64,000 nucleotides of DNA from Staphylococcus saccharolyticus (lineage in GTDB: Bacteria; Bacillota; Bacilli; Staphylococcales; Staphylococcaceae): NCBI RefSeq assembly GCF_900458815.1, contig NZ_UHDZ01000001.1, positions 2,170,001 through 2,234,000 of the forward strand. The letters are read 5' to 3'. The translations under genes were made by a program, and so were the position numbers. Of the stretch, positions 9,966 through 62,848 are shown piece after piece; within the stretch, counting starts at the first letter, position 1; each line of letters starts with the position of its first letter. The notes below the pieces were generated by a model. That model saw only the letters and a list, made by a program, of their open reading frames with translations, was not told the DNA's origin and ran no database searches.

Positions 9966-10098
9966 TTTCTAAATAAATCCTCCCGGTTAGATTCGATTTC
10001 ATTCTTATTATATTCCTGTTCACGTAATTTCACAATGCTATAATCAGATTATTTTATTCTAATTTTTTTCACCATCGAATGATTTCGCTTTAGAGGAT

Positions 10099-10461
10099 TT
10101 ATTTTTCACCTGGTAATCTAAATATCACTTCACCTTTATTACTTAAATAATAATCATCCCGTGCAACTTTCTCAATATAATCTTTATCATTTAAATTATT
10201 CAATTTTTCTTTTAAGGCGATTTCTTCATCTTGTTGTTTTTGAAATTCAGTTTCTTTATGTTTTCTTTCAACAGCATCTTGATCGTTACTATGCTTTTGA
10301 ATGACAAGCAATACGAGTAAAATAAGAATAATCGCTAAAAGAATCCCACCAAATACAGCTATACGTCGACGCACCACTCGCATTTTCATTCTTTGTCGTT
10401 GTTTTTTCTTATTTTCTTGAGAAGTATATTGATTTCCTATATTTTCTACCTTTTTATTCAT
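10099..10461 (-). CDS. divIC: Cell division protein DivIC (FtsB-like)
   Basis: Bitopic septum protein that works with DivIB and FtsL in the divisome. It has 120 residues: a basic cytoplasmic N terminus (about 1-32, 'KKKQRQRMKMRVVRRR'), one membrane helix (about 33-55, 'AVFGGILLAIILILLVLLVI'), then an extracellular coiled coil (60-100) ending in 'DDYYLSNKGEVIFRLPG', the usual DivIC/FtsB C-terminal box. It sits 23 bases downstream of the S4-domain gene, in a probable operon with it and yabN. Confidence 0.9.
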   Translation of the reverse strand: MNKKVENIGNQYTSQENKKKQRQRMKMRVVRRRIAVFGGILLAIILILLVLLVIQKHSNDQDAVERKHKETEFQKQQDEEIALKEKLNNLNDKDYIEKVARDDYYLSNKGEVIFRLPGEK

Positions 10462-10484
10462 TGCTTGTCACCTCCTTATGCATT

Positions 10485-10748
10485 TCACGCTTCATTTATA
10501 CGTTCTTCTTTAATTAATTCATACATACCTTTTGCAATTTCTTTCGTGGCATGTTCATTTAATCCTGTAATTTTTACTGTTACTAACTTTTGACCAAAAC
10601 GAATAACAAGTTCATCATTTTCTTTAATATCTGTACCTGCTTTCGCTACGTTTCCGTTAACAGTTACACGACCTTGATCACTGATTTCTTTTGCTAATGT
10701 TCGTCGTTTGACTAGTCGTGAAACTTTTAAATACTTATCTAATCTCAT
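10485..10748 (-). CDS. rqcP: S4-domain RNA-binding protein RqcP (YabO)
   Basis: Small S4 protein of the Hsp15 type. In B. subtilis this protein (YabO/RqcP) works with RqcH in alanine tailing of stalled 50S-nascent chain complexes. It has 87 residues; the S4 motif is 'MRLDKYLKVSRLVKRRTLAKEI..GRVTVNG' at the N terminus. The start overlaps the stop of the upstream mazG part by four bases. Intact, even though its upstream partner is frameshifted. Confidence 0.9.
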   Translation of the reverse strand: MRLDKYLKVSRLVKRRTLAKEISDQGRVTVNGNVAKAGTDIKENDELVIRFGQKLVTVKITGLNEHATKEIAKGMYELIKEERINEA

Positions 10749-46533: not shown

Positions 46534-47253
46534 TTATCGCCGTCTTGAAAACTCTTTAAATTTAAACTCTGTAGCTAAATGCTTTGAAATATTATATTGA
46601 AAACATGTGGTATCTTTTAAAAAAACAGTACTTCTGACAGTAGCCGTAAAAGGCGTGAGATGATTCCCAAAAATTTCATAGTCCAAAGATGAAAAAGATT
46701 CAAATGTAATTGCTTTACTTGAATAACTTATATCTAATTTCAATTTATTCTCTAAATACGCATAAATTGAGTCTTGAGCTATACCTTTAGTGATTGCCTC
46801 AACTACTGATTTCAAGAAGAAATCTTCATCGAAGATTTTCACTTTATTGTGAATAGAACGTGTCCGTTGAATATGAACTAATTTTTCATTGTCAGAAACC
46901 TCTAACTCTCTTTGAACTTCAGGAAATGCTTGTGCTTCTACAATTTCGTTTAAAATCACATTTGTTTCGTGTTTAAGATCTAATTCTTCTTTTACTTCTT
47001 TAAAGCTAATTAACTCAGAAAATGGAAATTCAGTAATTTCTTGATAAATAACCACTGAACCTTTACCTCGGATTTTTTGAATCATTCCATCTTGTTCTAG
47101 CATATGTAATGCTTTTCTAACAGTCTCACGCGAAGCATCATAAGTAGAAACTAAGTCATACTCAGAAGGTAACTGATTACCATAATTTAAATCTTGAGTT
47201 AAGATATTACTTTTAAGTTCATTATAAATAGTTAAAAACTTCTTTTGTTTCAT
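46534..47253 (-). CDS. treR: Trehalose operon repressor TreR
   Basis: GntR-family (HutC/FarR type) repressor, probably sensing trehalose 6-phosphate. It has 239 residues from ATG 47253 (MKQKKFLTIYNEL), chosen because GAGG lies eight bases upstream; an upstream TTG is possible. The winged helix shows 'LPSEYDLVSTYDASRETVRKALHMLEQDGMIQKIRGKGSVV'; the effector domain (UTRA) runs to the C terminus. It is the only unbroken gene of the tre locus, downstream of treC, and a near-perfect palindrome before treP is its likely operator. Confidence 0.93.
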   Translation of the reverse strand: MKQKKFLTIYNELKSNILTQDLNYGNQLPSEYDLVSTYDASRETVRKALHMLEQDGMIQKIRGKGSVVIYQEITEFPFSELISFKEVKEELDLKHETNVILNEIVEAQAFPEVQRELEVSDNEKLVHIQRTRSIHNKVKIFDEDFFLKSVVEAITKGIAQDSIYAYLENKLKLDISYSSKAITFESFSSLDYEIFGNHLTPFTATVRSTVFLKDTTCFQYNISKHLATEFKFKEFSRRR

Positions 47254-47270
47254 GGTTGTTGCCTCATTCT

Positions 47271-48911
47271 TCAAAATTCATGCGTCTCAATGACTATCGA
47301 ACCAAAACCAGATATTTCATTATTCGTTATTTTACCATTTTGAATAATAATATCTCCTTCAGTATTTAAATCAGTCGGTAATTTTATAACTTCTTTCGAA
47401 AAGTTGGCAATCACAAGCCAAGAAGTAGATTGATAATCACGACGATATGTAAAAAGTTGATCGTGGTTCATATATAAAGGTGTAATATTTCCGTATGTTA
47501 AAATATCATAATCGTGACGTAATTCTATCAGTCGTCGATAAGTGTGCAGTACTGAATTGGAATCTTTAATTGCTTGGTCGACATTCACATTTTTGTAATT
47601 AGATGTAACATTTATCCATGATTTACCCCTCGTAAAACCAGCTTCTTTACTATTACTCCATTGCATTGGGGTACGTGAATTATCTCTGGATTTCTGACTT
47701 AATATTTTTAATATATATTCCTCAGAATAACCTTTACTTTTTAATTCTTTAAAGGCGTTTAAAGATTCAACATCACGGTATTGATCGATAGTTTCAAAAC
47801 GAGGATTGGTCATACCAATCTCCTCACCTTGATAGATATAAGGTGTACCTTGTAACATGTGTAGTGCAATAGCTAAAGTCTTTGCACTTTTTTGACGTAA
47901 TTCCTCAGTCGTAGCATCTCCAAATCTAGATACTATTCTTGGTTGATCATGATTACATCAAAATATTGCGTTCCACCCTCCACCTTCATAGATACCTACT
48001 TGCCATTCCATTAATCTCTTTGTCAATTGTTGGAAATCATATTCGGCATATGTCCATTTTTCTCCATTGGCGTAATCAACTTTTAAATGATGGAAATTAA
48101 AAACACTATTTAATTCTTGTCTTTCAGGTTGAGTGTACTTAATACAATGATTAATAGTCGTTAAAGACATTTCTCCTACGGTCATTAACTCTTTATCACC
48201 AAAGGTATGACGATTTAGTTCATTTAAATACTTATGTACATGTGGTCCATCCGTATAGAATTCCTTCCCAATTTTCGAAGAATCCTTGAACTCACCTTTT
48301 GATATCAGATTAATGACGTCAAATCTAAAACCGTCAACACCAAAGTCAATCCAATAATTAACAATTTGATATAATTCTTGTCTTACCTTCAGATTGTCCC
48401 AATTTAAATCAGCTTGAGAAACATCAAATAAATGTAGATAGTATTCATCCGTTTTATCATCATATTCCCAAGCGTTACCACCAAATTTGGATTCCCAATT
48501 TGTTGGTGGTCCATCATCCGATTGTCTAAAGAAATAATAATCTCTTAAAGAACCTTCTTTAGAGGACTGGGCTTCTTTAAACCACTTGTGTTCTGTGGAT
48601 GTATGATTGATAACAATATCTAACATGATTTTTAAACCTCGATGATGTGCTTCATCTACAAGTCTCTTAAAGTCGTCAATCGTTCCAAATTGCTCATTAA
48701 TCTGTAAGTAATTACTAATATCGTATCCATTATCATTCATTGGAGATTCATATATAGGTGTAAGCCATAAATAATCGACACCTAAAAACTCTAGATAATC
48801 AAACTTTTCAATAATACCATTTAAATCTCCTTTGCCATTTCCAGTCGTATCATTAAATGATTTAGGATAAATTTGATAAACTACCGATTTTCTCCAATCA
48901 TTCCGTGACAT
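47271..48911 (-). pseudogene. treC: Trehalose-6-phosphate hydrolase, in-frame stop
   Basis: Glycoside hydrolase family 13 enzyme that splits trehalose 6-phosphate (also named treA). One frame covers 546 codons from ATG 48911, but codon at 47958-47960 is TGA. The context 'GGWNAIF-stop-CNHDQPRIVSRFGDATTEELR' shows that W (TGG) has become TGA. Other parts are well conserved, including 'DYLWLTPIYESPMNDNGYDI', catalytic 'GFRFDVINL' and 'TVGEMS' (the acid/base Glu), and 'GTPYIYQGEEIG'. The truncated protein (about 317 residues) lacks the C-terminal third and the third catalytic carboxylate. Confidence 0.88.
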
Positions 48912-48960
48912 AATTTTCCCACCTTTTAACAATTTTACTTTTAAATTTCACAATTTATCG

Positions 48961-50397
48961 TTAGTCTGCCACAAATTCTTCTACCATTTCTTTAACTTCT
49001 TGTTTGCTTAACTTTGATAGGAAAATGGTTATAAAGAATGGAACAATAATTGCTAAAACCGTAATAATACCATAAATCAACCAAAACTCTTTTTGGATTG
49101 AGATAATAGCTGGTACTCCTCCGACACTTACTTTTCCTAAAACTTGGTTAGCTCCGATAATTCCACCTAACACACAAGATGTAGATATTGCTGCGATAAA
49201 TGGATATTTCAATGGCAAATTGACACCAAACAAAGCGGGTTCAGTAACTCCAAGCAGTCCTGACACTCCTGATGTTAAAGCTAAGCCTTATTTCTTAGAC
49301 ATCCGACGTCGTTTATAGACATACCAAGCCCCAAAAGTTGTATAACCTTGACATATATTTGAGATGGCTACTATCGGCCATAAATATGTGCCTCCTAATC
49401 GACTACCCATCAACTGAAAATCAACAGCTAAGAACATATGGTGTAAACCTGTAATAACAAGCGGTGCATAAACCAAGCCATAGATAGCTCCACCAAGCCA
49501 ACCAACGTGTTCAAAAACAAAAGTAACTGCGTTGGTAATACCAGTACCAATAAGAAGTACGACAGGACCAACAATAATAAACGCTAAGAATCCAGTCACA
49601 AGCAAAGCAACTGGTCCAACAACGAGCACTTTAATGGAGGCATGAACTACTTTGTTTAATACTTTTTCAAGTTTTGCTAAAATATACGTTGCTATAAGAA
49701 CCAGCAATACCTGTCCTTGATAATTAAGTTGTTTAATATGTAAACCAAATATATTCCAAGTTGGTATATTCGTTTTGCCGATATCGTATTGAGAGACAAG
49801 TTGGAGATTCACCGAGCACTAAACCTAATATAGGACTCCCACCAAATACTCTCATACTACTCCATCCAATTAAAGCTGGTAAAAATATGAAAGCTGTGTT
49901 TGCAATCACATTGATGATATCGGAAATATCTGCAATTTGTGGATACATTTCAATTAATTTTTCAGGGCCAAATAAACCTTTCATAGTAAGTATATTGCTA
50001 ATACCCATGAGTAAACCTGCAGTAACTATAGCCGGCAATATAGGGATGAAAATGTCTCCCAATAATTTAATTAAACGTTGTAATGGATTACCCTTTTGTG
50101 CAGCTGCTTTTTTTTCTCATTTTTTGATGATGCTTCAACGCCTGTTTCTTCAATAAATTGTTTATATACTTCATCTACTGTACCAGGTCCTATAACTATT
50201 TGATATTGATGGTCTGCTTTAAATTGTCCTTTTACTAGTAGATTTTCATCTAATACAGTTTTATCAACTTCACTATCATTTTTTAGCACTAATCTTAGAC
50301 GTGTTACACAGTGTGTTGCTTTATCTAAATTTTGCTTTCCACCAATTGCTTCAACAATGGCATTTACATCTTTTCTTTTTACAGCCATACATTTCAC
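48961..50397 (-). pseudogene. treP: Trehalose-specific PTS transporter EIIBC, multiply broken
   Basis: Membrane PTS transporter. The EIIB domain (50397-50115) has 'MKCMAVKRKDVNAIVEAIGGKQNLDKATHCVTRLRLVLKN' in parts, with the phosphorylated Cys in ATHCVTRLR. Lesions: (1) a one-base loss in an A-run (plus-strand T8 at 50108-50115; nine expected); (2) a frame change with probable deletion near 49800-49815, after 'GGSPILGLVLG'; (3) an in-frame TAA at 49288-49290 between 'KRRRMSKK' and 'GLALTSG'. The C-terminal piece ends at 48961. The EIIC membrane helices are otherwise recognisable. No full transporter can be made. Confidence 0.9.
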
Positions 50398-50417
50398 TCC
50401 CTTACTTTCTTATAAAA

Positions 50418-50442
50418 AGTATAACTTGTCTAGATAAGTTAT
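50418..50442 (-). promoter_or_regulatory. treP operator and promoter (probable TreR site)
   Basis: A 22-base near-perfect palindrome at 50421-50442 (ATAACTTRTCTAGA-YAAGTTAT) with a central TCTAGA; only one position pair differs. On the minus strand, -35 TTATAT, 17-base spacer and -10 TATACT (50418-50423) put the palindrome over the promoter, as expected for a repressor site. Confidence 0.75.
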
Positions 50443-50564
50443 ATAAAGGCTTACATGAAATCGTAAAAAAATAGATACTGGCCATTCTAAATTTAACTCC
50501 TCTAAATAATGGATTAATTCCGAAATTTCGCTCGTGTTTATAAAGATTACAAATACAATATAAA

Positions 50565-50600
50565 AAAGGCAAATACTCATTAAAATAAGTACTTGCCTTT
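50565..50600 (-). terminator. Terminator of tRNA-Ser
   Basis: 13-base stem aaaggcaaatact/agtacttgccttt (50565-50577 and 50588-50600) with one G-T pair; TTTTTT follows on the minus strand. Downstream of the tRNA and upstream of treP. Confidence 0.85.
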
Positions 50601-50631
50601 TGTATCTATTAGTCTTGGAATTTAATTCTAA

Positions 50632-50724
50632 TGGCGGAGGAAGAGGGATTCGAACCCCCGCGGCCCGTTAAGGCCCTGTCGGTTTTCAAGACCGATCCCT
50701 TCAGCCGGACTTGGGTATTCCTCC
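50632..50724 (-). tRNA. tRNA-Ser (anticodon TGA)
   Basis: Minus strand starts GGAGGAATACCC and ends CTTCCTCCGCCA, giving the acceptor stem with an encoded CCA. The anticodon loop is CTTGAAA (anticodon TGA, reading UCA), and a long variable arm typical of tRNA-Ser is present. Intact despite the broken genes on both sides. Confidence 0.96.
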
Positions 50725-50740
50725 AAAGAACACAATAACA

Positions 50741-50769
50741 ATCATATAATAGCGTTCATTAAAAGTCAA
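50741..50769 (-). promoter_or_regulatory. tRNA-Ser promoter
   Basis: Minus strand: -35 TTGACT (50764-50769), 17-base spacer, -10 TATGAT (50741-50746). Confidence 0.8.
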
Positions 50770-50786
50770 TATAATTATTATTGTAT

Positions 50787-52250
50787 CTACACTAGAATTT
50801 TATTACTTAAATATTTATCAACTGACTGGGCAATAGCACGACCTTCTTTAATGGCCCAAACAACTAAACTTTGCCTGCGTCGAGCATCCCCTGCTGCAAA
50901 AATTTTAGGATGATTAGTTTGGAAGTCAACATTGTTTGCTACAATCTTATTACGTTCAGTATGAATCTCAAAAGCATGTGGAACAGTTGTCTCCGTTCCA
51001 ATAAAACCGATAGATAATAAGACTAAGTCAGCAAGCCAAAATCGTTCAGGCCCATCTTCTATGACCATACCATCAGACGTTTCCTTTAATATTTGAGTGT
51101 ATAGTCCTCTAACATTACCTTGATCGTCTACATCATATCGCATTGTTTGAACTCCTTAAGCACGTGGCTCTTGACCGAACTTAGCTTCATATTCTTTATG
51201 GGCATAATCCATCTTAAATACAGGCATTGCCAGAGGCCATGAGGTGTTACTTTCAAAAGTTATTTCTTCGGGTTGCTTAGTATATTTATTAAACTGAACG
51301 ATAGATTTACAGTTCTCACGCAACGCAGTAGCCACACAATCGGCTTCAGTATCACCAGCACCTATGATTATAACATTCTTATCTTTAGCAGTGATAGATA
51401 CATCATCAATCTCACCATTTAAATACTGAGTTTGTTCAGTGAGGTAAATCCATAGCGAAGCGTATTCCAAGCCCCATGCGTCCCTCTAAAGGTAAGTCTC
51501 TTGCATTTTGAGAACCTGTACAAAGAATAATTGCATCAAACATCTCTTCAAGTGTTTCTCGACTCATATCAACACCAATTTCGACACCTGTTTTAAAAAC
51601 AATTCCTGCCTCCTTCATCAATGATATCCTGCGACGAACAACTTCTTTATCTAGTTTCATATTCGGTATACCATACATTAGTAAACCACCAGATTCATGC
51701 GCTTTTTCATACACTGTCACTTTAAACCTTTAATATTCAATTCTTCTGCTGCTGTAAGTCCAGCTGGCCCACTACCTACAATTGCAATTGTTTGGGGTTT
51801 ATTGTCTTCAGGATATTTAGGTTGAACCCATCCGTTATCATACGCTTCATCTATAATCGTACGTTCGATACCTTTAATCGCTACTGACTCCCTATTAATT
51901 TTCATGACACAAGAATTTTCACAAGGGGCTGGACATACTCTTCCAGTAAATTCAGAAAAATTATTTGTTTCGCTTAATCTCTCATATGCCGTTTTAAAAT
52001 CTTGATGATAGACTAAATCATTCCATTCAGGAATGTAGTTTCCTATAGGACAACCTATCGTTTCTCTTCCATAAGGTTGACCTGTTTGACAAAATGGTGT
52101 CCCACAATCCATACAACACGCACCTTGAATTGAGGCATCCTCCTTTGTAAAACGTTGTTGAAACACTTCATGATTAGAAAGACGGTCTACCAAAGACAAT
52201 TCTGATAGAGACTGTTTATTATATTTCATAAATCCTTTAAATTCGCCCAT
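50787..52250 (-). pseudogene. gltD: Glutamate synthase small subunit, multiply broken
   Basis: The beta subunit supplies NADPH electrons to GltB. Four pieces remain, all clear in homology: 'MGEFKGFMKYNKQ...MDCGTPFCQTGQ', the FAD loop 'VGSGPAGLTAAEELN', 'GGLLMYGIPNMKLDKEVV' and 'VIIIGAGDTEADCVATALREN'. Lesions: one A lost near 51721-51723 (ending NIKGLK); one extra base at 51446-51448; an in-frame TAA at 51156-51158 where Tyr is expected ('PRA-stop-GVQT'). There are also substitutions at conserved places: GAGDTE for GAGDTG, GDARRR for GDARRG, GACCMD for GARCMD. This points to decay, not just read errors. Confidence 0.9.
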
Positions 52251-52268
52251 GATAAATCCCTCACTTTC

Positions 52269-55200
52269 CTAATAGATAACTGCTGGTTGTAATTCTTTTT
52301 CAATATTTTTTCTATCATCGTAGAACGCTGCAAGTGTTGCCTCGTCTTCACGTTCAATTTTACGTTTTTGTAAATCAATCTTTTGCATCATTAATTTATA
52401 GTCTTTTGGAATAACTTTCACTACAAATTGTTCAACACTTTCAAATTGATCCAATAATTTTTGAGCTTTAGTACTATGAGTATATTTATAATGCGCTTCA
52501 AGCATCTCTCTAATTAGAGTCTTTTCTTCTTCATGACACACATCACTAAATTCTAAAGTTTCCAGTACATTTACCTTTTTAAATCTTTCTACATCTGAAG
52601 GGAAGATATAACTCACACCACCACTCATACCTTGACCAAAGTTTTTACCTACATCTCTTAAAATAATGACATGTCCGCCAGTCATATATTCGAGTTCATG
52701 ATCACCAATACCTTCTACTACGACATCAGCCCCACTATTTCTTATACAAAAACGTTCTTCTGCCTTACCATTGATATAAGCTTTACCTTTGGACGCTCCA
52801 TAAAAGTTAACATTACCAACAATAATTTCATTTTCTCTTTTAACATTAGGTGCTTTAACAATAACCGTTCCACCGGATAAGCCTTTCCCAACATAATCGT
52901 TGGCATCACCTGTATGATGTATGGTTAAACCTTTCGGTGCATAGGCAGCTAAACTTTGTCCCGCATGACCTTCTGTATATACAAAAATTGTATCTTCAGG
53001 CAATCCTTCTTCACCGTAATGTCTTGTAATAGAACTACCTGTAATAACACCTACATCGCGTTGTTCATTATTTATAACATAACTACCAGTAAATGAATGA
53101 CCACTCTCAATACTGTGTTTCGCATCTGGATATAAATAATTTAGATCAAAACCTATATCCAATGGATGTTGTTAAGAAATTTCCTTTGTATTCGGTCCAT
53201 CAAAGTATTCGATTAAATTCTCTATTTGAATTGTAGCCGCTTTACTTCCAACTTTTAGTTGAGACGAACGCTTAAGAAAATCTGTACGTCCAACTAACTC
53301 TTCTACCGTTTCTAAACCTAATGAAGCTAAAATTTCCCTTAGTTCCTCAGCAACAAAGTACATAAAATTCACAACATATTGTGCCTTTCCTCTAAATAGA
53401 GCACGTAGATCTTTGTTTTGTGTCGCCACACCTACTAGACATGTACCGTTATGACACACTCTCATCATAATGCAACCTAAAACAACGAGCGGAGCTGTGG
53501 CAAAGCCAAATTCTTCTGCCCCAAGCGCACATGCGTATGCAACATCCTTTCCTGTTAGCAACTTACCATCCGTTTCTAATTTCACACGGCTACGTAAATG
53601 ATTGAGTTTCAGTGTTTGGTGTGTTTCAGCTAGACCGATTTTCCAAGGTACACCTACATGCTGAATACTTGTCTTAGGTGATGCCCCAGTTCCACCATCG
53701 TAACCACTAATCACGATTTTGTCTGCAAAAGCTTTTACTACGCCTGAAGCTATTGTACCTACTCCTGTTTTGGATACGAGTTTAACTGCAATATCTGCCT
53801 CTATATTTGAATTTTTCAAATCATGTATAAGTTGAGCTAAATCCTCTATTGAATATATATCATGATGAGGTGGCGGAGATATCAAACCGATACCTACTGT
53901 TGAACCCCTAGTTTCAGCTATCCATGGATACACTTTTGAACTAGGTAACTGACCCACCTTCCCCTGGCTTAGCGCCTTGCGCAACTTTTATTTGAATTTC
54001 TCTAGCGTGTTGCAAATAGTCACTCGTTGCACCAAAACGACCAGATGCAACTTGTTTTATCGCACTTATTTTATTGCTACCATCTTTTTGAGTTTCATAA
54101 CGTGATGGGTCTTCGCCGCCTTCGCCACTGTTACTCTTACCACCTATTTGATTCATCGCTTGAGCTAACGTCTCATGTGCTTCTGCTGAAATAGACCCAT
54201 AACTCATCGCACCAGTGTTAAAACGTTTAACAATCTCACTTGCAGGTTCAACTCTACTAATATCTATCGCACGTTGAGGTTTGAATCCTAACAAATGTCG
54301 TATATGATCAATACGTTTAAAATTTACTTCCTCTGAAAATTCCTTAAATAGCTCATAATTATTGTCTCTACATGCATGTTGTAACAGGAAAATTATACGA
54401 GGATTAAAGGCATGATGCTGACCTTGTTGTCTCCATTGGAATGTACTTCCTGATTCAAGGTAGTCTGACGCACCACTTTGTCTAGCTTTATTCTCCTCAT
54501 CAATTTGTTCAATACTAATACCAGATAATTTCGATTGAGTACCCGTGAAATATTGATCAATAACTTTTTGAGATAAACCAATCGCTTCAAAAATTTGTGC
54601 ACCTTGATAACTTTGAACCGTAGAAATCCCCATTTTAGCCATCACTTTAATAACACCTTCAGATATTACATTAGAGTATATGTGTCGACGTTCCTAGTCA
54701 CTTCATCTGAAAGCTGTCCTTGGAGCGTTAATTGTTCAATCGTACGCTGAGTAAAATAAGGTACCACCGCATTTGCACCATATCCGAGCAGACAAGCAAC
54801 ATGGTGAACTTCTCTAGTTTCTCCCGATTAAACAACTAGACTAGTCTCCATTCTTAAACCTTCACGAATTAATAATTGGTGAATATGACTCAATGCTAGT
54901 AACATTGGCATCGCATAACCACTCTCATTTACAAGTGGCTTATCATCTAAAACTAAAATTTTTGCGCCATTTTTAACAGCTTTTATCGCTTGTTTGCCTA
55001 AGTCAGTTAAACTATTCTCAAGTTGATCAGTATATAACGTAGATAGATATGTCACTTTGAAACGTGTTACATCTATAGTTGCCAACTGAGCCTCAGTTAA
55101 GACTGTTTTTTTTAATTGGATACGTTGTAACGCAGAAACATCAGGATGAAGTAAATTTCCTTCGCCACCTAAATAGGATAGTTCGCTAGTGACGATTTTC

Positions 55201-56765
55201 TCTCGATATGCGTCAATTGGAGGGTTTGTTACTTGTGCAAACAATTGTTTAAAATAATTAAACAATGATTCAGGCTTATCATTCAGTACAGCAATAGGTG
55301 CATCATAACCCATAGCTCCAATAGGATCTTTCCTATTTGTTACTAACTCCGTCATATATTTGCTTATATCTTCTTTTGTATAAGCGAACTGTTTTTGTAA
55401 ACGGAATAATGTATCATCACTCCACTCAGAAGGTTGATAGTCAATATTATCTAAATCATACGACGTCTTATTCTCTTTTAACCATTGTTCGTAAGGTAAC
55501 TCATTCGCAATATCTGCTTTCAACTCATTATTCTCTACAACTTTATTTTGTAAAAAGTCGACCAACAATAGCTTTCCTGAATTCAATTGCCCCTTAAAAG
55601 CCACATTTTCTTCAGGAACGTCAATTACACCTACCTCAGATGAAAAAACAATAAAATTATCTTTAGTTATAGTGTAACGACCTGGCCTTAATCCATTACG
55701 ATCGGTAAGTGCACCAATTTTATCTCCATTACAGAACGAAATCATTGTTGGTCCATCCCATGGTTCCATTAAATAACTATAAAATTCATAAAAAGCTCTT
55801 ACATTTTTATCATTCGATTTATTATATAACCACGGTTCTGGAATCAAGAGCATTACTGCTTTTTCTGGTTCCATAGCTAACAATAGAAATTCTAAAGCAT
55901 TGTCTACAATAGCTGAATCACTTACGTCCTCATCTACGTTAAAACGAACTTTATTTTTTCATCTTTAAACAATGTTTCAACGAGTTTACTTTGTCGCGCT
56001 CTCATCCAATTAACGTTACCTTTTATCGTATTGATTTCACCATTATGCATAAGCATACGATTAGGATGTGCACGTTTCCAACTTGGGAACGTATTTGTAC
56101 TAAATCTAGAGTGTATAAGTCCTAACTTAGATTGAAAGTTTTCATTCTGCAAATCTAGATAAAGACCCTTAATTTGATCGGAACGTAACCAACCTTTATA
56201 CGCTATTGTTCTATTTGATAAACTTGTAAAATATATATCTAACGAGTGTTCCTCACCATATTTTTCAATTTGCTTTCTTGCTAAAAATAGTTGTTTTTCA
56301 ACTTCTTTAACTCCTCTAATATTTACAAATACTTGTTGAATATAAGGCATAGTATCTGCAACATGCTCAGCAATAGCATTTGTATCTACAGGAACATCTC
56401 GATATCCAATAACTTTAAATCCTTCTCTTTCAAAGTAATGATTAAATTTCGTTTCATGTATAGAGTCTTTCACTTGTTCATTAGAAAAAATAATCCCACG
56501 GCATAATGACCTTCACCGGGAACTTGTATATCTGATAATTGATCAAAAAACTTAAATGGAATTTCTGTCATAATCCCTGCGCCATCTCCAGTGATACCAT
56601 CAGCCCCAACACCGCCACGATGATCTAGTCGACGCAACATTTCTAAAGATTTTTAATAATATCGTGAGATCTTTTATTATCCATATTGGAATAAAACCCA
56701 ATACCACACGCATCATGTTCTTCACGATAATCATATAACCCCTTTTTTAACTTCTCATTGTACAT
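52269..56765 (-). pseudogene. gltB: Glutamate synthase large subunit, multiply broken
   Basis: Should convert glutamine and 2-oxoglutarate to two glutamate. The start is ATG 56765 (MYNEKLKKGL; catalytic Cys in 'EEHDACGIGFYSN'). I count seven lesions in reading order: lost base in an A-run (56650-56654), lost base near 56492, lost base at 55950-55952, TAA at 54828-54830 (Glu expected), two extra bases near 54673-54677, one extra G at 53953-53955, and TAA at 53172-53174 (Gln likely). FMN and Fe-S regions remain visible ('KPGEGG', '[14 protein letters not shown]', where P is usual for L). About 1498 codons of frame remain. Confidence 0.92.
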
Positions 56766-56853
56766 GATGCACACTCCATTATTAGAATTTTATGACAATT
56801 TTGGTTTGATAATAATTATTATAATGTAATATATTTATCTGTTCAATATATAA

Positions 56854-56874
56854 ATTAGATTAAACCTATCTAAT
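56854..56874. promoter_or_regulatory. Inverted repeat between gltB and gltC (probable GltC site)
   Basis: Perfect repeat ATTAGAT-taaacct-ATCTAAT in the divergent region between gltB and gltC. Length and T-N11-A form fit a LysR-type regulator site such as that of GltC. A second palindrome, ataattattat, lies near 56812-56822. Confidence 0.65.
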
Positions 56875-56955
56875 AATTAGAATGATTTAGCAGAGTATTG
56901 CTATATTAGTTTTGTTTACAGAATTTTAATATGGAGTTTAGGAGGGGTTTACATT

Positions 56956-57838
56956 ATGGATATAAAGCAACTTAAATATTTTGTAAAGGTCGCACGTCGT
57001 GAACATATTTCAGATGCTGTACTAGAGTTGAATATAGCTCAATCTGCCATTAGTCGACAAATTAATCAACTTGAAAAGGAATTAAATGTCATACTTTTTA
57101 AAAGAAGTGGACGAAATATTATCTTAACTACAGAAGGTAAGCAGTTACTCTCTCAAGCTACTCAAATATTAGATCAAATCGATAAGACTGTTCAATCTTT
57201 TCAACAGCAATCTTCTACTGACCGACGTACAATTTATGTGGGTTATGAGGAAAGTGACGTATCACAAATGATGTTACCGCTCATTCAATCTTTTGAACAA
57301 CAAAGTACTAGTATTATGACTCCACAATTGATGTGCTATAAGACAATGATGGAAGACTTAATTACAGGTGTGTTAGACATAGGAATAACCGAATTGACTG
57401 AGGAAATCACAACTGAATCACAACTGCAAATGATGCCTTTATTTGAAGAAAATTATCATATATATGTACCTAAAGATCATCCTATCGCTTATGTCAATTC
57501 ATCCCTTACTGTCTCAATTTGAAACTGAACCTTTATATTGCCTCACACCGTTTGCCAAAAGCATCAAAAACAAATTGAAGGTAGCGACAAAGTCTAAAGT
57601 ACACTTCCTATCAAACAAACAACTAGCACAATATGTCTTACGTCAAAATAAAAGTTTTGTGATTTGTTCTCAAAACATCAATTTAAATGACAATAATGAA
57701 TGGGTAGACATTCCACTCATACATACAGAACTAAAGCGTACAATATGCGCAGTCACACGGTTTGATAATAAAAAAACGGACATTAAATTAGCATGGAACT
57801 TGATTTACAAATTAATGAACAAAACAACACCATACTAA
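56956..57838 (+). pseudogene. gltC: Glutamate synthase activator GltC, frameshifted
   Basis: LysR-type activator of gltBD, divergent from its target. The N-terminal piece (188 residues) has the helix-turn-helix 'MDIKQLKYFVKVARREHISDAVLELNIAQSAISRQINQLEKELNV'; it ends in a frame that changes at about 57493, where one extra base gives 'AYVNSSLTVSI' and a stop. The other frame continues 'SIHPLLSQFETEPLYCL' to 57838. The repaired protein would be about 293 residues. A GGAGGGG site precedes the ATG. The DNA-binding half could still be made. Confidence 0.88.
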
Positions 57839-60796: not shown

Positions 60797-60982
60797 TGCT
60801 AATCCTTCCCTATCTCTTTCTTAAACACTTCAAAAAACTTTTTATATTTAGTATTATGTTACCATAAATTAAATTATGCAGTGGTTTAACTCAATTGTAA
60901 CTAATTTTGAAAATCAAAATTTAGCCACGCATTAAACTTATATAATTTTAATTATGTACGTTAACTACTGGAGGGGATTTTT

Positions 60983-61204
60983 ATGGCAAAACAATCTAGC
61001 GCTTCACACTTAACTAATTTATTTAACGTTGCAGGATTTATTTTGGATGGATATAACGGTATTCGACACGATGCTAAAAATAAGCAATTGGTCTATTTGT
61101 CACTAGGTTTAAGTGCAGTTGGTACTGCTATTGATTTTTACGTTTCAATTAAATCGCCGTCTAAATTACGTAAATTAAGTGATTTAGGCTCGGTTTGCAA
61201 TTAA
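60983..61204 (+). CDS. Small membrane protein, possibly frameshifted at its C terminus
   Basis: A 73-residue frame, 'MAKQSSASHLTNLFNVAGFILDGYNGIRHDAKNKQLVYLSLGLSAVGTAIDFYVSIKSPSKLRKLSDLG', with two hydrophobic segments (about 12-20 and 36-55), preceded by a good GGAGGGG site. It ends in 'SVCN'. The next frame over continues 'LGLQLTGYACLQVLEKSK', which fits better as a continuation, so a one-base change near 61190 may have cut it. I do not recognise the family. A strong terminator follows at 61279. Confidence 0.6.
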   Translation: MAKQSSASHLTNLFNVAGFILDGYNGIRHDAKNKQLVYLSLGLSAVGTAIDFYVSIKSPSKLRKLSDLGSVCN

Positions 61205-61278
61205 CGGGTTACGCTTGTTTACAAGTTTTAGAAAAGTCAAAAATGAATACGATTATCATTAATAAAGTTGAATTTTAC

Positions 61279-61308: not shown

Positions 61309-61367
61309 AAAAAATCTTTATCATGTGTAATTAACAATTTTTAAAATAATCACACATTATAATTGCA

Positions 61368-62848
61368 ATGATTTATACAATTACATCAACACTTCCACTA
61401 TCACATGGTGGAAGAACTCAAGCTCTACTTAGGCGTATAAAACTTATTGATGAAGAATTTGGAATAGCGAGTAAAATTCTCACTACAAACTACAATGGTA
61501 ATCACCCCAGTATTTACAAACATTTTTTAAAAGAAAATAAAGTGACTGAAAATATGTACGAATGGTTATCCGGTTTCAAACTTTTTAAAACTCCTAAAAC
61601 ATTTATTACAAGAAATCCAAAATACGTTAAAATTCAAAGAAATATCAAAGATTTCACGCATAAAGAAGAAAGAAATGGTAGTATTATCGTTACTATAGCG
61701 GAGAAAACTATGTACGATTTCGAAAATACTATGGCACATCCGATGTTCTTAAACATGAGGTCTTTATTTCTACCACTACAGGATTAAAATATGAACGTCA
61801 CGAATATAATTTATACGGGCAACTTCATAGAAAAATCTATTATTTTGATAATTCTAAGCTTAAATATAGCGATAAACTATTCGATACAATAGGTACAATG
61901 TATTGCAAACGATACTTTCAAAACAACGATAAAAACAAGATAAATCGAATTGAATTATATAAAAACACAAAAATATATAAGACCTTTGAAAATGATAAAG
62001 CATTAGCACAATTTTATTTCCAAGCCAAGTTCAAAGATAATGATGTTGTATTTTGTGATGCTAGATTTCTAGATCGTCCTCTTTTGAAACAAACACATCA
62101 AACCAAAAATATATTTGTATTTCACAGTTCCCATTTATCAAGTAACACATTAAAAAATCTTATAAATTCACTTTAGAACATTCTAAAGGCGTATATAAAT
62201 TATATAGTTCTAACTGAACAGCAAGAACGTGATATTCAAAGAGTTTATCCTATAGAAGACCAGCGTTTCAAATTAATTCCTCATTTTATAGAAATTGCTG
62301 ACGATATTCATACAGAAACACATAAGAAAAAAGACCGTTTTATTTATATAGGACGTTTTAGTGCTGAAAAACAAATTGATCATTTAATTAAAGCATATCG
62401 ACAATTCTTGCAAAGTGGTCATCAAACATAATTACACTTGTTCGGAAGAGATGAAGATCAACAATTGACACTAATCAAATCACTGATTTCAAAACTTCAT
62501 GATAAAGTTAAAATTTTAGATTATACTAAAAATCCACTTACAGAATTTAAAACTTCTAAAGCTTCTCTATTAACAAGTAAATATGAAGGTTTCGGCTTAA
62601 CAATTATAGAAAGTATTGAAATGGGATGTCCTGCACTGTCATACAACATTCCCTATAGTCCCAGTGAAATTATTAAAAATGGAGAAAATGGTTACTTAAT
62701 AGAAGAAAATAATATAGATAGCTTATCTTAACATATGATTGATATTGTAGAAAACCCAATTAAAGAAGTAAAAAATCAGGATAAATTAAAATACTCAGCA
62801 GCTGTAAACAACTATAAGCAATTACTTGAAGAATTAAAATTAATATAA
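61368..62848 (+). pseudogene. Family 4-type glycosyltransferase, multiply broken
   Basis: Remnant of a teichoic-acid or glycoprotein glycosyltransferase (poly(glycerol-phosphate) alpha-glucosyltransferase type). Homology runs from 'MIYTITSTLPLSHGGRTQALLRRI' to the nucleotide-sugar site 'SKYEGFGLTIIESIEMGCPALSYN' with the EX7E motif. One frame change near 61735 (before 'VLKHEVFISTTG'), then stops TAG 62174-62176, TAA 62429-62431 ('SGHQT-stop-LHLFG', CAA expected) and TAA 62729-62731 ('DSLS-stop-HM', CAA expected). There is no ribosome binding site at the start, so the 5' end may also be lost. About 490 codons of trace. Confidence 0.88.

Follow-up and report, generated by a model that had tools for sequence, protein, structure and literature searches.

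The locus examined here carries the trehalose (tre) and glutamate synthase (glt) genes of Staphylococcus saccharolyticus, a skin bacterium. It is located in a window of 64,000 nucleotides, the whole stretch of DNA that was analysed, which corresponds to bases 2,170,001-2,234,000 of contig 1; positions refer to the window unless marked as genomic or given with a contig. From left to right, the window encodes treR-treC-treP-tRNA-Ser-gltD-gltB on the minus strand, followed by gltC on the plus strand. Lesions were counted by frameshift-aware alignment against the intact orthologues of G002, a colinear relative with about 80% nucleotide identity. The five protein-coding genes from treC to gltC, termed the block, are all broken. 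The features of the locus are:

46534..47274, minus strand: treR, trehalose operon repressor (GntR/UTRA), an unbroken open reading frame (ORF) of 246 amino acids; TIGR02404 at 233 bits, above the cut-off; no lesion relative to G002
47271..48932, minus strand: treC (phosphotrehalase) pseudogene, one in-frame stop, leaving ORFs 47958-48932 and 47271-47858
48961..50397, minus strand: treP (trehalose phosphotransferase system (PTS) EIIBC) pseudogene, two frame changes and one stop; TIGR01992 in both pieces scanned
50632..50724, minus strand: tRNA-Ser(TGA), intact (ARAGORN)
50787..52250, minus strand: gltD (glutamate synthase small subunit) pseudogene, two frame changes and one stop
52269..56774, minus strand: gltB (glutamate synthase large subunit) pseudogene, five frame changes and two stops
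56955..57838, plus strand: gltC (LysR-type activator of gltAB) pseudogene, one frame change

In total, the block holds 15 lesions, namely 10 frame changes and five stops. A further stop at residue 3 of the G002 reference ORF of gltB was left uncounted and is taken to lie upstream of the real start. The original prediction for this DNA had listed the same five genes as broken, with about 15 lesions in 10.6 kb and with treR and tRNA-Ser unbroken. This is borne out by the recount, which yields one, three, three, seven and one lesions for treC, treP, gltD, gltB and gltC, respectively; the integrity of treR is confirmed by ORF, profile and alignment, and that of the tRNA gene by ARAGORN. Both treC and treP are whole in G002, and gltD and gltB are free of counted lesions in G002 as well as in two further genomes of the genus, G022 and G023. 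Both treC pieces match TIGR02403 below the whole-protein cut-off, the three gltD pieces scanned all match TIGR01317, and the N-terminal piece of gltC reaches 285 bits for NF047354 (cut-off 300). In gltB, the GATase_2 (amidotransferase), central and Glu_synthase domains are each divided among pieces, and GXGXG is found alone on its piece. The full domain set is present in none of the pieces scanned, and none of them would be expected to be a whole enzyme.

To place these counts in the context of the genome, a control sample of 20 stretches of 20 kb each was taken from the same genome (232 kb of coding DNA out of 400 kb). Excluded from all counts were lesions falling on residues 1-10 or on the final four residues of a reference ORF, genes cut by the edge of a stretch, and reference ORFs lacking a match in the paired stretch. 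Since the sample is limited to genes that have a counterpart there, its maxima are lower bounds. As a control of the method, G023 ORFs were aligned to G022; of 73 ORFs, those inside rRNA among them, two showed 3 apparent lesions in all, which were judged to be start or spurious-ORF artefacts.

The control sample has 52 broken genes among its 254; of their 87 lesions, 53 are frame changes and 34 are stops. The lesion rate is 1.10/kb in these broken genes and 1.36/kb in the block, where the 15 lesions compare with 12.8 expected under a zero-truncated Poisson model for broken genes of the same length (P=0.27). The 52 broken sample genes are compatible with one common rate (chi-square P=0.18). Across the whole window, 11 of 53 genes are broken by 25 lesions, a count from which rRNA-internal ORFs and one antisense ORF (10392-10674) were removed. 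With lesions spread evenly over the coding DNA of the window, at least 15 of the 25 would fall into the block with a probability of about 1e-5. Five broken genes in a row have P=0.007 in the window, and with 2,200 genes a genome would contain such a run with a probability of 0.48. One control stretch, for example, holds four consecutive genes with 4, 2, 1 and 3 lesions. The intact treR is uninformative about selection, because a gene of this size escapes lesions by luck in 36-44% of cases. The block is ordinary, with a lesion load matching that of broken genes elsewhere. The clustering had originally been read as loss of selection on both pathways; loss of selection is supported, a special joint block is not. 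A special tre-glt block was rejected on the length-corrected lesion counts together with the independent losses across the genus described below.

The genome comprises two contigs with 2,366,437 bp in all, a chromosome contig of 2,346,514 bp and contig 2 of 19,923 bp. It was assigned to S. saccharolyticus by contig 2, of which the 19,900 bases searched match the plasmid NZ_CP068030.1 of this species with 100% coverage and 100.0% identity. The total falls inside the published range of 2,321-2,396 kb (PMC8066136). For strain 13T0028, a plasmid of 19,923 bp and a chromosome of 2,332,643 bp are reported (PMC7953294), and the sequenced genome is probably another strain or assembly. Membership in clade 1 is likely, because a 19-kb plasmid is reported to be specific to this clade (PMC8066136).

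Genome-wide gene decay of S. saccharolyticus is already published, and the block is part of it. A description from 2019 gave at least 301 pseudogenes (PMC6423177), and a study from 2021 gave 470-490 on average, one strain being predicted to be auxotrophic for every amino acid and another for most (PMC8066136). About 21% of the coding sequences are inactivated in strain 13T0028, and in two other strains with hybrid Illumina/Nanopore assemblies, 469 and 493 coding sequences are inactive (PMC7953294). The present data agree with these reports in species, in the proportion of genes that frame changes and stops have broken (about 20%) and in the strong effect on amino acid synthesis. Beyond them, figures are given here for the lesion rate, for how recently the genes were inactivated and for the independent loss of tre and glt. 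The words 'glutamate' and 'trehalose' are absent from the main texts of PMC6423177, PMC8066136, PMC9742538 and PMC7465461, whose supplements may well list the genes, and a literature search joining S. saccharolyticus with 'glutamate synthase' found nothing.

We consider it highly probable (about 0.93) that the block is an ordinary patch of recent, genome-wide pseudogene formation in S. saccharolyticus. The niche would supply amino acids and trehalose would be unneeded, so that purifying selection on treCP and gltBDC would have ended. Frame changes and nonsense mutations would then have built up at the common rate (about 1.1-1.4/kb). Their length would make the glt genes look heavily struck, neighbouring genes would have been released alike, and treR would have been spared so far, for which chance is sufficient.

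Substitution patterns indicate that the inactivation is recent. The pooled ratio of nonsynonymous to synonymous substitution rates (dN/dS) is 0.059 for the block (relative to G002); relative to G022, it is 0.071 for 202 unbroken sample genes, 0.088 for the 52 broken ones and 0.108 for the 10 sample genes with at least three lesions. Because the broken genes also show raised three-way counts on the branches of the relatives, their higher dN/dS is read as faster-evolving genes breaking more often. For these three-way tests, genes with less than 85% coverage and stretch L112, for which no G023 sequence was included, were dropped; the antisense ORF at 10392-10674 was kept here and in the stop-clock counts. 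None of four tests revealed a significant own-lineage amino acid excess in the glt genes (P=1.0, 0.12, 0.70 and 0.39). With G022 and G023 as references, the glt ratio is 0.89, compared with 0.94 in unbroken window genes (P=0.70) and 0.80 in unbroken sample genes (P=0.39). An acceleration of glt suggested by the ratio of 2.43 with G002 and G023 as references was dismissed, since eight unbroken neighbours give 2.44 (P=1.0).

The time since release was estimated with a stop clock based on the fourfold-site spectrum of the own lineage, in which 6.9% of neutral changes create a stop. The five stops of the block correspond to 0.70% neutral divergence since release (0.23-1.63%). Similarly, the 28 stops in 47 broken three-way genes (window included) correspond to 0.80%, about 1.4% of the branch of the lineage; the clock counts broken genes only, which biases these values upward. 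For the split between the two S. saccharolyticus clades, an average nucleotide identity (ANI) of 97.9% (PMC7953294) and 33,164 core single-nucleotide polymorphisms (SNPs) (PMC8066136) are reported, from which the all-site divergence per lineage ranges from 0.76% (core SNPs) to 1.05% (ANI). The average inactivation is probably younger than the clade split, because 0.7-0.8% neutral divergence is less than the neutral divergence since the split, which would exceed the all-site values of 0.76-1.05%. More tentatively, and with the odds somewhat against it, release may have been not only recent but also near-simultaneous across the genome and mostly post-split, with both clades decaying in parallel. 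The single per-kb rate across the 52 sampled broken genes was counted toward near-simultaneous release.

To compare the two pathways across the genus, a set of 84 genomes was used, in which the own genome is the sole S. saccharolyticus. The tre-tRNA-glt order is common to G002 and the seven named staphylococci compared (7 loci, L006-L012, of 80). The Glu_synthase domain of the main gltB is found in a single open frame in 59 of 70 other genomes of the genus and is absent in 11; two of the 59 frames are shorter (G035, 1,227 codons; G053, 1,043 codons). The search for treP gave some match in 82 of the 84 genomes, own genome included. Exceptions are G024 and G031 without any match; G022 and G023 have short matches elsewhere only, and the match in G032 is partial. 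In the 70 genomes covered by both searches, gltB is lost in 11, treP in 4 and both in one (Fisher P=0.50; P=1.0 if G032 is counted as a treP loss). In G022 and G023, treCP is gone by replacement or deletion and glt is kept. The tre-glt neighbourhood would thus represent an inherited order and not a functional unit, because the losses are independent and G022 and G023 lost treCP yet keep glt.

According to a published report, S. caprae has a trehalose-specific PTS, which S. epidermidis and S. capitis lack (PMC6225691). The genomes compared here resemble this pattern in that G022 and G023 lack treCP at the locus and G002 is complete. In S. saccharolyticus, in contrast, the tre genes decay in place, whereas those of G022 and G023 were deleted or replaced. 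Between a decayed treR remnant and tRNA-Ser, G022 (L104/L105) carries, in place of treCP, a membrane-protein-like frame of 347 codons and a LysR-like frame.

Several observations weigh against the block being an ordinary and recent patch of decay. Its 15 lesions in 10.57 kb exceed the control-stretch maximum of 11, and no run in the sample is longer than four broken genes, compared with five in the block. Adjacent broken pairs number 14 in the sample, compared with 9.7 after shuffling (P=0.067), a slight excess that is expected if operon partners are released together. Four of the 10 frame changes in the block lie within 12 nt of a homopolymer run of at least five (9.8% expected, P=0.012); in the sample this applies to 5 of 53, without excess. 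With G002 and G022 as references, the glt genes lean towards an amino acid excess (ratio 1.01 vs 0.76, P=0.12). In addition, among the same 203 three-way genes, in which the own lineage has 39 broken genes with 67 lesions, the method calls nine genes broken in G023 (10 lesions), so that some calls may be false or may be real breaks in that genome.

The homopolymer excess, together with the fact that 10 of the 15 block lesions are insertions or deletions, is what would be expected if errors of sequencing or assembly, such as a local drop in read quality, had made the lesions. Homopolymer runs are natural slippage sites too, and the other five lesions are stops in a frame that otherwise matches. 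All 25 window lesions lie outside the 42 unbroken genes (35.7 kb), for which P=9e-14 under evenly distributed error; this value argues against window-wide error and less against a purely local fault. Lesions in the sample also avoid conserved genes, with 6 in the 61.8 kb of the most conserved and 29 in the 36.1 kb of the least conserved genes. The larger number of broken three-way genes in the own genome than in G023 (39 vs 9) points in the same direction. The lesion rate of the block equals that of broken genes elsewhere in the genome, and the inactive coding sequences in the hybrid assemblies of two other strains likewise speak against an artefact. A drop in read quality, originally named as the main alternative, is disfavoured by the stops, the lesion-free 35.7 kb and the avoidance of conserved genes. 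The distribution of lesions over unbroken and conserved genes led to the rejection of sequencing error as the main cause; as an explanation of the lesions, such error is unlikely, with only a few chances in a hundred.

Two further explanations accept the lesions as real. The run of five adjoining broken genes would fit a joint loss of tre and glt through a functional link or a shared event, with the block as the selected unit. However, such a run is likely enough somewhere in the genome, clusters occur in other stretches, the lesions are small and scattered, gltB and treP losses coincide in a single genome of the genus, and G022 and G023 combine the absence of treCP with the presence of glt; we regard joint loss as about as improbable as sequencing error. 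Alternatively, recoding, read-through or transcriptional slippage might keep the genes functional and thereby account for the normal protein conservation; the amino acid change of glt in the own lineage is not significantly raised, and treC and gltC have only one lesion apiece. Under this explanation, gltB would have to tolerate seven lesions including two stops, and no run of at least five lies near 6 of the 10 frame changes in the block. Moreover, at a neutral divergence of only about 0.7%, the computed amino acid excess would escape notice, and about 20% of the sampled genes are in the same state. Continued function is the least credible of these explanations and slightly less so than joint loss. 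An ordinary patch of recent decay remains the best account of the block.

Judging from the lesions that split their domains, glutamate synthase (GOGAT) and the trehalose PTS/phosphotrehalase would be non-functional. The originally predicted lack of growth on trehalose is well supported from sequence and is likely, because treC, treP and the only other alpha-amylase-family gene found (genomic position 1,269,545-1,270,916) are broken. The API 20A kit includes trehalose. No carbohydrate of this kit was used by any S. saccharolyticus strain (PMC6423177).

With regard to glutamate, a second GltB-like gene (genomic position 498,336-499,408) is broken, as are GltBD and gltC. Open genes include those that resemble, by Pfam family, glutamate dehydrogenase (GudB), glutamine synthetase (GlnA), citrate synthase (CitZ) and isocitrate dehydrogenase (Icd). 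Glutamate uptake, for which GltS- and SDF-type carriers were searched, is thinned as well: the GltS-like symporter is broken, and of two SDF carriers one is broken and the other, of the glutamate/dicarboxylate type, is open. In Bacillus subtilis, gltAB or gltC mutants are glutamate auxotrophs, and the glutamate dehydrogenases serve degradation in vivo (PMC10938345). By analogy, S. saccharolyticus is likely to depend on glutamate or on an amino acid convertible to it, because these mutants are auxotrophic and the dehydrogenases degradative. Strict dependence on glutamate is plausible but uncertain, since the GudB-, GlnA-, CitZ- and Icd-like genes and one SDF carrier are open. Enzymes and regulator are the same in both systems; unlike the laboratory mutations in the prototroph B. 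subtilis, the decay in S. saccharolyticus is natural and stands beside broken leuB-like and gltS-like genes. Glutamate would be obtained from uptake, transamination or peptides, and the loss of GOGAT would cost the species little, because most amino acids are predicted to be required anyway.

The GltS-like sodium/glutamate symporter gene (contig 1, 608787-609892) is broken into two pieces. The SDF-family carrier gene (contig 1, 2267671-2268656) has nine stops within the matched stretch and, if these do not reflect a one-frame reading across frame changes, was released before the block. A gene of the isocitrate/isopropylmalate dehydrogenase family, probably leuB (contig 1, 848477-849486), is in two pieces, which fits the published leucine auxotrophy.

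Within the window, decay extends past position 57838, with six lesions in two genes:

60979..61250, plus strand: broken gene outside the reported block, one frame change
61361..62845, plus strand: broken gene, glycosyltransferase-like in G023, three frame changes and two stops

The G023 copy of the latter resembles SdgA/SdgB with a score far under the cut-off. Before the block, four single-lesion genes were counted in place of the three originally given. One of the four, at 10061-10461 on the minus strand (133 amino acids in G023), has a frame change near the 3' end. It resembles divIC; its product, probably an important cell-division protein, may have an altered C-terminus.

These results illustrate that a conspicuous concentration of broken genes at one locus can amount to a routine sample of a genome in decay. 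For the decay of S. saccharolyticus, a rate and an age have been obtained, and the question of whether it took place before or after the clade split becomes a direct comparison of lesions. If the two clades did decay in parallel, the glt and tre genes would be broken in both, mostly through different lesions.

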